From IMG/VR virus record IMGVR_UViG_3300023176_001015, positions 1 through 30,035 of that record: a DNA stretch of 30,035 nt, one strand, 5' to 3'. This stretch comes from a virus. Numbering within the stretch: the first letter of the stretch is position 1; each line of letters begins with the position of its first letter. The position numbers and the translations under genes were made by a program. Shown piece by piece: positions 25,327-30,035 of the stretch. The notes beneath the pieces were generated by a model. It was not told where the DNA came from. It saw only the letters and a list, made by a program, of their open reading frames with translations, and searched no databases.

Positions 25327-25354
25327 TTAACAAAAATTTCTGAAGTCTTATACT
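25327..25354 (+). promoter_or_regulatory. Sigma-70-type early promoter
   Basis: TTAACA (25327-25332), 16-base spacer, TATACT (25349-25354); predicted start near 25361. It points toward the early genes and RNA polymerase, as the T7 A1-A3 host promoters do. Confidence 0.7.
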
Positions 25355-25596: not shown

Positions 25597-25690
25597 CACT
25601 GCACTGCAATGGATCTGATCCGGTATTGTGCCAGTATTCCAAAGTGTCCACCACCATTGAGCCGCTTCGAGCTGCTACCATGACATGAGA

Positions 25691-25764
25691 TGACTGATTG
25701 AAGGTCTTGATCTCGACTCTCCCTGTTAAGGGGGAGGAGAGTCTCGATCTTCAACCATCAGTCA
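25691..25764 (+). repeat. Long imperfect hairpin (74 nt)
   Basis: Three paired blocks lie in register: TGACTGAT 25691-25698 with ATCAGTCA 25757-25764, TGAAG 25699-25703 with CTTCA 25749-25753, and GACTCTCC 25715-25722 with GGAGAGTC 25736-25743. A three-base bulge and one internal loop separate them. That is 21 pairs. No T-run follows, so it is not a typical terminator; an RNase III-type processing site or a genome-end structure fits better. Confidence 0.6.
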
Positions 25765-25835
25765 CTCCCACCGAACCTCGACAACTTCATAAGCAGCTCG
25801 TTACAGTGGTGGCGACCAACCCCGTGGGTTCCTGG

Positions 25836-25998: not shown

Positions 25999-26229
25999 AT
26001 GTTCTTCCCTGTCACTCGTCGTACCTCTGACGCTGTTGCTCAACTGCTCGTCAGCCCTGTGCTTGGCGTTGTGCTCGTTGAGTTCGCCAACGGCTACAGC
26101 TACGAGTACACCAACGTTAGCCGCCGTGCTATCGCTAACCTGCTGCTCAATCCTAACATGAGTCTTGGGTTCTGGGTTAACCAGAACTGCGTTGCTCCTA
26201 AGCGTACTGCTTGCCTCAGCCTCGCCTGA
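25999..26229 (+). CDS. KTSC-like small early protein
   Basis: 76 residues. The segment V-L-G-V-V-L-V-E-F-A-N-G-Y-S-Y-E-Y-T-N-V, followed by a helix and S-L-G-F-W-V-N-Q-N, matches the beta-beta-helix pattern of KTSC-domain proteins (function poorly known, some linked to nucleic-acid handling). Start 25999 is chosen because the open frame upstream runs through the structured noncoding region. It is the first early gene. The leader has TGTTCACT 13 bases before the ATG, as does the next gene. Confidence 0.65.
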   Translation: MFFPVTRRTSDAVAQLLVSPVLGVVLVEFANGYSYEYTNVSRRAIANLLLNPNMSLGFWVNQNCVAPKRTACLSLA

Positions 26230-26302: not shown

Positions 26303-26713
26303 ATGACTGCAACCGTCACCGCATCTGCCCAAGCTCGCTACGAGCAGTGGTACGACAGCAAGGACGCAGACACTCAGGCTCTCATCGACGAGATCCACGA
26401 GTCCACCTCGTTTATCATTGACGAGGATGAGTATGATGCATTTATCCACGAGCTTGACGCTGACCTAAGCATCACCACTGCTGAGCAGTTCTGTGATGCA
26501 TTCTTTGGTGAGCATGAAGGCGTTGGTGATCACGTCACCACTGCATTCACTGAGCAACTCATCGACGATTGCTACTCTCACGAGATCGAGTCAATGCCTA
26601 GCTTCCTGCAAAACGCTATTGACTACGAGCTTGTGTGGTATCAGTCCATGCGTTATGACTACTACGATCTGGAGTTCAAGGGTAACACCTACTTCTTCAA
26701 TCGTAACGTCTGA
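26303..26713 (+). CDS. ArdA-like antirestriction protein (acidic DNA mimic)
   Basis: 136 residues with about 30 Asp/Glu against 5 Lys/Arg, so strongly acidic. The C-terminal half resembles ArdA: an A-E-Q-F-C-D-A-F-F-G-E-H-E block, then F-L-Q-N-A-I-D-Y-E, and the closing L-E-F-K-G-N-T-Y-F-F-N-R-N-V (in ArdA, N-G-H-V-F-R). ArdA proteins mimic B-form DNA and block type I restriction enzymes. As the second gene of the early region it holds the place of T7 0.3 (Ocr), an unrelated DNA mimic. Start 26303 follows leader module A; the frame is open upstream but overlaps the previous gene. Confidence 0.75.
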   Translation: MTATVTASAQARYEQWYDSKDADTQALIDEIHESTSFIIDEDEYDAFIHELDADLSITTAEQFCDAFFGEHEGVGDHVTTAFTEQLIDDCYSHEIESMPSFLQNAIDYELVWYQSMRYDYYDLEFKGNTYFFNRNV

Positions 26714-26737
26714 GGTAGCTCGCTAGCTCGCTTGATA

Positions 26738-26811
26738 GTTACACTTAGGCATCGCTACTTAGCGTTGCTTTTCTGTAGCTCTCATGCTACGTGTCCTTTA
26801 CACACAACAAC
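26738..26811 (+). promoter_or_regulatory. Leader module B, upstream of the gene at 26812
   Basis: GTTACACTTAGG (26738-26749) leads into a hairpin (GCATCGCT-ACTT-AGCGTTGC, one mismatch) followed by TTTT, then CTGTAGC (26773-26779) and GCTAC (26786-26790) with a six-base loop 21 bases before the ATG. It is a diverged copy of leader module A. The first hairpin could act as a weak terminator or attenuator. Confidence 0.6.
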
Positions 26812-27033
26812 ATGAACGTCTACGTTGTCACTCACCGCTACCCGTACTCTGATACGGATTGTGTATCCGTGTATCAGAACATGGACGCAGTGATGCACAA
26901 GATGGAGATCATTCGTCTTCACGGTATGGATGAACTCGAAGAGATTAAGATCGAGTGCACTGAAGTTATCGACGAAGATACTGCACTTGAACGTCTCAAC
27001 AATGTCCGCAAGTACAAAGAAAAGAATGACTGA
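26812..27033 (+). CDS. Small early protein of 73 residues, unknown
   Basis: The product begins M-N-V-Y-V-V-T-H-R-Y and has a beta-strand/helix pattern with an acidic centre (DELEEIKIECTEVIDED) and a Lys-rich end. No family recognised. ATG 26812 is preferred over an in-frame GTG at 26791 because it keeps the same distance to the leader hairpin as in module A. Its stop overlaps the next start by eight bases. Confidence 0.65.
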   Translation: MNVYVVTHRYPYSDTDCVSVYQNMDAVMHKMEIIRLHGMDELEEIKIECTEVIDEDTALERLNNVRKYKEKND

Positions 27034-28617: not shown

Positions 28618-30035
28618 ATGCCCACACCCGCACAGATATCTGAGCAAGTCGAACTTGAGCGCGAACAGATTCGGCAAGGACTCAAGCAACTGCGCGACAA
28701 CACACGCAACCTAGAGGAGAAGGACTACGCTAGTGCATCCGTGTACGGTGTAGCGTCTATTCAAACACTGATCCCTCTTGTTGTTAATCGGATCTTATCT
28801 ACTACCAATCGCATCAACGAAGGTAAGATTGGCGTAGCATTCCGTGAGATCAGACATTACCTTGCAGATGTAGAACCTGAGGTAGCAGCAGCTATCGCCA
28901 GTAAGGTCACGTTTGACAAGGTATTCTCTCCTACTCCATCACAATCTAAGGTACAGAACGTAGCTGATGCTATAGGCTCAGCACTTGAGAACGAGTGTAT
29001 GATGCGCCATTATGAGCGCACTGTACCTGGATTACTGCAAACCCTCAAGGATAACTATTGGCACAAGTCAATAGGTACACATCAAAAGGTCAAGGTTATC
29101 TCCACCTTGATGAATCGATATGATGTACAGCATTGGCAGACATGGGGACGTGCTAACCGTGTGAAGCTAGGCGGTTGGCTGCTTGACTGTATTTGTGAGG
29201 CGACCAACTGGTTCACACGTGACATGCGTCAGGAAGGACGCAAGCGACAAAACTATGTGATCCCGACCCCTGAGTTCCTGGAGATCAAAGACGAGGTTGT
29301 GCACACAGCTGAGGTATTCAGCCCGATGACCTGGCCAATGCTTATCCCTCCTAATGACTGGTCACACACTGAATCCGGTGGGTACCTGCTCAACGAGGTG
29401 ATGCGTGGTCATGACATGGTACGCAGGGGCGGTCCGTCATGTATACAGGGAGAAACACCCATCAAGTTTCTGAACAAGATTCAGAAGGTTGCCTACCGTA
29501 TTAACCCGTTTATCGTAGAGGTAGCGGAAGAGTTAGAACGTAGGCAGATTGAGGTGGGTAAGTTTGTCCCTATCATTGAGATGCCCCTACCGCCTAAGCC
29601 AGTAGACATAGCAGAGAACAAAGATTCTCGAAAAGACTACAGGCGGAAAGCAGCAGAGGTAATGAACATCAATGCACAAGCATTCCAACGTTCTTGTAGA
29701 ACAAGGATGACATTGAATGCAGTGAAGGTGTTTAAGGATAGAGATAAGTTCTACATCCCGTGGTCGTTTGATTACAGGGGTCGTGCTTATCCTATTCCTG
29801 CATTCCTCACACCGCAAGATACAGACTTTGGTAAGTCTCTGCTCAAGTTTCATGATGAAGCGTTTGTAGATGAATACGCCTGTGATTGGTTAGCTTTCCA
29901 GGTCGCTACAACGTACGGTCTAGATAAGGCGACCATGGCTGAGAGATTGGCATGGACGCTAGACAATCATCAACTCATCACAATCATCGCTCAGGATCCG
30001 CTCGGTAACCTGCATGAATGGGAGGGTGTCGATGA
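28618..30035 (+). CDS. T7-type single-subunit RNA polymerase, 3' end beyond the window
   Basis: ATG 28618 opens a frame that stays open to the window edge (472 complete codons). The N-terminal domain has the T7-like order: a W-x-x-W-G-R-A-N-R-V segment near 178, P-L-I-P-P-N-D-W near 240, P-I-K-F-L-N-K-I-Q near 281, and the polymerase-core entry F-Y-I-P-W-S-F-D-Y-R-G-R-A-Y around 378-391 (T7: D-W-R-G-R-V-Y). The catalytic palm Asp residues lie beyond the window. It transcribes middle and late phage genes from its own promoters. It is the last of the early run, as gene 1 is in T7. Confidence 0.95.
   Translation, partial: MPTPAQISEQVELEREQIRQGLKQLRDNTRNLEEKDYASASVYGVASIQTLIPLVVNRILSTTNRINEGKIGVAFREIRHYLADVEPEVAAAIASKVTFDKVFSPTPSQSKVQNVADAIGSALENECMMRHYERTVPGLLQTLKDNYWHKSIGTHQKVKVISTLMNRYDVQHWQTWGRANRVKLGGWLLDCICEATNWFTRDMRQEGRKRQNYVIPTPEFLEIKDEVVHTAEVFSPMTWPMLIPPNDWSHTESGGYLLNEVMRGHDMVRRGGPSCIQGETPIKFLNKIQKVAYRINPFIVEVAEELERRQIEVGKFVPIIEMPLPPKPVDIAENKDSRKDYRRKAAEVMNINAQAFQRSCRTRMTLNAVKVFKDRDKFYIPWSFDYRGRAYPIPAFLTPQDTDFGKSLLKFHDEAFVDEYACDWLAFQVATTYGLDKATMAERLAWTLDNHQLITIIAQDPLGNLHEWEGVD
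29430..29454 (+). repeat. 25-bp direct repeat, copy 2 (inside RNA polymerase)
   Basis: Matches 24519-24543 at 23 of 25 positions. In frame it encodes G-G-P-S-C-I-Q-G-E. It ends in TATACAGGGAGAA, similar to the initiation part of T7 promoters. No similarity continues outside the 25 bases. Confidence 0.7.

Follow-up and report, generated by a model that had tools for sequence, protein, structure and literature searches.

A small acidic ArdA-type protein without domain 1 at an interchangeable early locus in T7-like cyanophages

The second early gene of a T7-like cyanophage contig encodes a small, strongly acidic protein which, based on family profiles and predicted structure taken together, is almost certainly homologous to ArdA. 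The protein corresponds to two of the three ArdA domains, helical domain 2 and domain 3, the alpha/beta domain through which ArdA dimerises; domain 1 is lacking. Its main function is probably that of an early DNA mimic directed against type I restriction–modification. The slot which the gene occupies is an exchange cassette, and this is new here.

The window, i.e. the whole stretch of DNA analysed, is a 30,035-base IMG/VR viral contig whose gene content is that of a T7-like cyanophage: it carries part of psbA, the genes for capsid and tail, terL and thyX, then a block of small early genes followed by a T7-like RNA polymerase (RNAP). The cyanophage origin proposed in the first-pass annotation agrees with the psbA fragment, which is closest to that of Cyanobium (94% identical). 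The features of the early region are as follows:

25327..25354, + strand: sigma-70-like promoter TTAACA-16-TATACT, the candidate early promoter, just 3' of the thyX stop
25660..25800, + strand: long hairpin of high stability within the untranslated leader (RNA fold energy -61.9 kcal/mol, z-score -6.4)
25999..26229, + strand: first early gene, KTSC-like (phrog_7365; PHROG E 6e-34), 76 aa
26235..26290, + strand: two-hairpin element, copy 1, at the 5' border of the slot (70.8 bits)
26303..26713, + strand: small ArdA-type acidic protein gene, 136 aa, ATG at 26303 to stop at 26713
26738..26801, + strand: two-hairpin element, copy 2, at the 3' border of the slot (62.8 bits)
26812..27033, + strand: next early gene, DUF7336-like, 73 aa, outside the exchanged slot
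28618..30035, + strand: T7-like RNA polymerase, truncated at the contig end; it bounds the early region on the right

The candidate promoter matches the consensus at 10 of 12 positions and is the best in the region, where such sites are only slightly more frequent than in shuffled sequences. It is followed by the untranslated leader, 680 bases long, that separates thyX from the KTSC-like gene. The slot gene is likely to be expressed early, by the host polymerase, since this promoter comes after thyX and the gene itself precedes the phage RNA polymerase. The KTSC-like gene, whose match to the Pfam KTSC family is below the cut-off (E 0.035), is kept in 33 phage records (tblastn) and is 88% identical in S-RIP2 and KBS-P-1A; the DUF7336 match is also sub-threshold (Pfam E 0.0043, 17.3 bits vs a 25-bit cut-off). 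The RNA polymerase matches that of S-RIP2 at 74% (tblastn). The first-pass annotation had placed the acidic gene in the Ocr position: it does lie second in the early region, before the RNAP, but near and not at the exact first-gene place of T7 0.3, because the KTSC-like gene precedes it.

The ORF at 26303-26713 is a gene under purifying selection and not a chance ORF, on account of both a low dN/dS (about 0.06-0.25 with relatives at 58-90% identity, in unsaturated comparisons) and a conserved gene order: terL-thyX-KTSC-ORF-small ORFs-RNAP recurs in related contigs, and this ORF lies between terL-thyX and the T7-like RNAP in dozens of them. A TTG start at 26165 is ruled out by the homology with sister phages and by the element end at the ATG at 26303. 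The strong acidity which had been pointed out earlier is confirmed, as no other among the 31 scored proteins of the window is as acidic (pI 4.05, 30 D/E vs 5 K/R, net charge -0.18 per residue). The acidic residues are evenly spread, with 15 D/E in each half, and the pI across the ArdA-type family is 4.05-4.09. A scan of 84,980 species genomes with the window protein returned no relative, so that, at this sensitivity, nothing points to a copy encoded by the host.

Concerning the ArdA homology, the window protein alone gives no useful match in direct Pfam, PHROG or PDB sequence searches. It falls below the Pfam ArdA cut-off (27 bits), and PF07275 matches nothing else in the window. Sub-threshold PF07275 matches are found in S-RIP1, S-B28, MedDCM-OCT-S04-C24 and several viral contigs (best 4.5e-5), and these matches of the relatives never extend beyond the middle and C-terminal portion of the profile (positions 48 to 154). 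When the family profile, built from an alignment of 23 relatives, was compared with a profile of 11 true ArdAs, hhalign gave 97%, with E 1.1e-10 and a score of 71.2; 60 column shuffles scored at most 17.3 and reversed profiles about 18. The ArdA-like C-terminal blocks proposed in the first-pass annotation are therefore borne out. The family profile also retrieves the ArdA gene of the Pelagibacter phage Ran at 3.9e-8, and the latter matches PF07275 at 1.1e-31. Four proteins encoded beside a KTSC-like gene in related contigs (L311, L308, L313 and L268) score above the Pfam threshold for ArdA across positions 64-154 of the profile; their matches to the window family range from 1e-21 to 1e-26. A mixed 18-sequence profile searched against PDB sequences returned only unrelated matches, down to E 0.013, and ArdA was absent from them.

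The AlphaFold model of the protein has a pLDDT of 91.7 and, with a moderate score, the fold of ArdA domains 2-3. A profile and structure comparison with ArdA had been suggested earlier; besides the 97% profile match, it places 2w82 (Tn916 ArdA) first among 350,542 PDB chains in Foldseek, at an E of 0.74 which is not significant alone. The alignment to 2w82 pairs model residues 33-134 with ArdA 75-165 at Z 5.1 (next row Z 3.7), a value which would not be convincing for the model if taken alone, and the aligned core has 14% identity. Several named ArdAs are found among the matches in the viral structure library. The ArdA reading holds because of the profile-profile match, the four members over the Pfam cut-off and Tn916 ArdA being the best PDB match.

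The domains of ArdA span residues 1-61, 62-103 and 104-165, the third being the dimer interface (PMC3906837). None of the domain 1 motifs (YVA.L..YN.G...G.W ... E.. IHDYE) of a canonical three-domain ArdA is present in the window protein, and no domain 1 ORF adjoins 26303-26713 in the window; it is a stand-alone C-terminal ArdA of about half size. The identity given in the first-pass annotation is thus upheld for domains 2-3 and does not extend to a full ArdA, as domain 1 (about residues 1-61) is absent. Tn916 ArdA (ORF18, PDB 2W82; PF07275) and the window protein share the domain 2-3 fold, the acidity and the order of the conserved blocks (F-D, G, P..L...IDYE, terminal aromatic strand), whereas only the former has domain 1 (residues 1-61). 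The short form is common to many lineages. Direct homologues are found at the same locus in the Synechococcus phages S-B28, WH11-B, 7B11-B and DSL-LC07; these are longer (186-192 aa), with an N-terminal extension which is unrelated to ArdA domain 1. In the T7-like phages Ran EXVC014P (Pelagibacter) and ProddE (Desulfovibrio), an annotated ArdA lies between the maturase/genome end and the RNA polymerase/integrase region, as in the window, but it is full-length, with three domains against two. Ocr (T7 gene 0.3, PF08684), an early DNA mimic, is also small, acidic and located in the region before the RNAP; it has a different fold, no sequence relation was detected, and T7 0.3 is the first gene whereas the window gene is the second. 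The Ocr profile PF08684 has no match in the window or in nine relatives, in agreement with the earlier remark that the two proteins look unrelated.

The closest known layout is that of sArdC (ArdA_1576 of Lactococcus cremoris, published 2025), an ArdA C-terminal part of 114 aa which protects lambda from EcoR124II and EcoKI in vivo and reduces methylation (PMC12548430). Both are small, strongly acidic ArdA C-terminal parts with the dimer interface, and the likeness described here is one of layout. sArdC is found on bacterial chromosomes (Lactococcus, Actinomycetota), whereas the window family (109-136 aa, plus the longer forms) is found in lytic T7-like cyanophages, in an exchangeable early slot. 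Since sArdC is active, the missing domain 1 does not exclude activity; it could weaken or change it, since mutants of Tn916 ArdA place antirestriction mainly in domains 1-2, with domain 3 responsible for antimodification (PMC3906837).

In S-RIP2 (gene SWQG_00045), S-CBP3, S-SBP1 and S-TIP37 the slot after the KTSC-like gene contains DUF7222 instead of an ArdA-type gene. The DUF7222 proteins are small and acidic (pI 4.05-4.11; PF23864 E 1e-25), and slot genes of this family in sister phages are located as follows:

L141:4804-5124: DUF7222 (PF23864) slot gene
L142:1404-1715: DUF7222 (PF23864) slot gene
L143:1019-1330: DUF7222 (PF23864) slot gene
L145:1074-1424: DUF7222 (PF23864) slot gene
L146-L168: further DUF7222 (PF23864) slot genes

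The DUF7222 AlphaFold model is helical (pLDDT 85.8) and has no credible match in the PDB, Ocr not being among the rows. Alignments of the window with DUF7222-bearing relatives lose nucleotide homology at the start codon of the ArdA-type gene (26304-26307 in each of three) and regain it shortly after the stop of this gene (26729-26733 in each of two). On an RNAP tree of 38 rows, whose loci had been selected by slot content, the slot occupant needs seven changes, six of them forced by well supported branches; the closest RNAP relatives of the window (L152, 89% identical; L154; L159) bear DUF7222. Because of that selection, contigs were redrawn by the preceding KTSC gene only, covering about 1.5 kb downstream. 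Across the 95 distinct loci obtained, DUF7222 is found in 55, an ArdA-type gene in 25, both in 2 and neither in 13 (Fisher p 2e-11, with related contigs not independent). Complete mutual exclusion is ruled out by the two distinct contigs with both genes, where the order after the KTSC gene is DUF7222 and then an ArdA-type gene of the longer form. KTSC, DUF7222 and the longer ArdA-type gene stand in a row in L241, L233 and L234, the last two being near copies.

The intergenic element at the slot borders is made up of TTACACT, a hairpin of variable sequence, a pyrimidine/T run and a CTGTAGC-N6-GCTAC hairpin. It flanks the slot gene, mostly on both sides, in the window and in about two dozen loci examined (including L141 and L146-L160); other ArdA-type loci have one copy or none. 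The second hairpin occurs twice in the window vs 0.00 expected by chance; its conservation and that of TTACACT are partly by construction, because the copies were selected by these two parts. Of the 10 pairs in the first hairpin, 8 have changes on both sides, and the covariation score is 0.353; shuffles give 0.134, and sliding gives no more than 0.126. No Rfam family matches the element at the gathering threshold. It may regulate each early gene (as a promoter, terminator or processing site), and we infer that it could offer short homology for cassette recombination. S-CBP4 (L157) contains three copies, one of them also 5' of the KTSC gene.

As to the proposed action against type I restriction, the slot protein would be produced early, ahead of the switch to the phage RNA polymerase, and would probably dimerise via domain 3 into a strongly negative mimic of bent DNA. 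This mimic would fill the DNA groove of the type I HsdS/HsdM core, and the occupied enzyme would be stopped from acting on the incoming phage DNA; we infer expression, dimerisation, binding and inhibition alike. The target is present in part of the host range: among 200 genomes sampled from the host family, that of Synechococcus sp. WH 5701, HsdR_N is found in 75 and Methylase_S in 81, and HsdR_N was not detected in 125 at the threshold used.

A different main target, i.e. an ArdA-derived DNA mimic acting on another DNA-binding host machine (host RNA polymerase, a repressor, BREX or another nuclease), is unlikely, yet it is the alternative to be taken most seriously. The targets of T7 Ocr also include host RNA polymerase (PMC7064336) and BREX, which it blocks (PMC7261183), and ArdA is able to change the expression of genes in E. 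coli (PMC13300388); the missing domain 1 and the majority of sampled host-family genomes with no detected HsdR_N also speak for such a target. Against it, sArdC still inhibits type I enzymes without domain 1, about 40% of the host-family genomes contain type I genes, and the frequent turnover of the slot suits anti-defence. Much less probable is convergence, by which an acidic helical protein with no relation to ArdA would look like it, partly through composition: the direct Pfam and Foldseek scores of the window protein are weak and acidic composition can inflate matches, but shuffled or reversed profiles of the same composition reach at most 18 vs 71, four members exceed the curated ArdA cut-off with the matching region in the right order, and ArdA is the best PDB fold. 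A decaying, functionless ArdA remnant, to which the missing domain 1 might point, is the least credible reading of all given the dN/dS of about 0.1-0.25, the motifs that are invariant at 55-90% identity, the short form shared by many lineages and the 186-192 aa forms that carry an unrelated N-terminal part and not a broken domain 1.

The presence of ArdA in T7-like cyanophages is no novelty as such, since three of the four cultured-phage homologues (WH11-B, 7B11-B and DSL-LC07, the other being S-B28) are already annotated as 'antirestriction protein'. No description of the two-domain form in lytic cyanophages and of its swap with DUF7222, and no paper naming the DUF7222 family, was found in a literature search whose scope excluded most subscription journals. 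If the protein does act as an early inhibitor of type I restriction, picocyanobacterial T7-like phages would meet such restriction often enough to retain a dedicated early inhibitor. Lytic phages would then use for this purpose an ArdA reduced to two domains, of which previous descriptions concern chromosomes. We also propose, tentatively and as a reading somewhat less probable than its opposite, that the slot is an anti-defence exchange cassette, often bracketed by covarying two-hairpin elements, in which unrelated acidic DNA mimics are swapped, and that DUF7222, a widespread acidic helical phage family, is a new anti-restriction or anti-defence mimic. The most interesting consequence, if true, is that DUF7222, being swapped with ArdA in sister phages, becomes a concrete, testable anti-defence candidate.

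Further observations concern the window and its relatives. Some relatives (L006-L011, L007, L019, L036, L038) have a gap of ~2 kb between the 28155-type gene and the RNAP, which the window lacks; in S-CBP1 (L019), where it is annotated, the gap contains a MarR-like regulator and an integrase. One viral protein (L033:4386-5168) is a tandem ArdA, comprising a full ArdA and a second, partial ArdA C-terminal domain; the partial domain ends in GDYYFFNRNF as in the cyanophage family and forms a sequence bridge. A Glutamine-II riboswitch (RF01704, 56.5 bits) is located at 727-784 of the window, immediately 3' of the psbA stop and ahead of the capsid gene.
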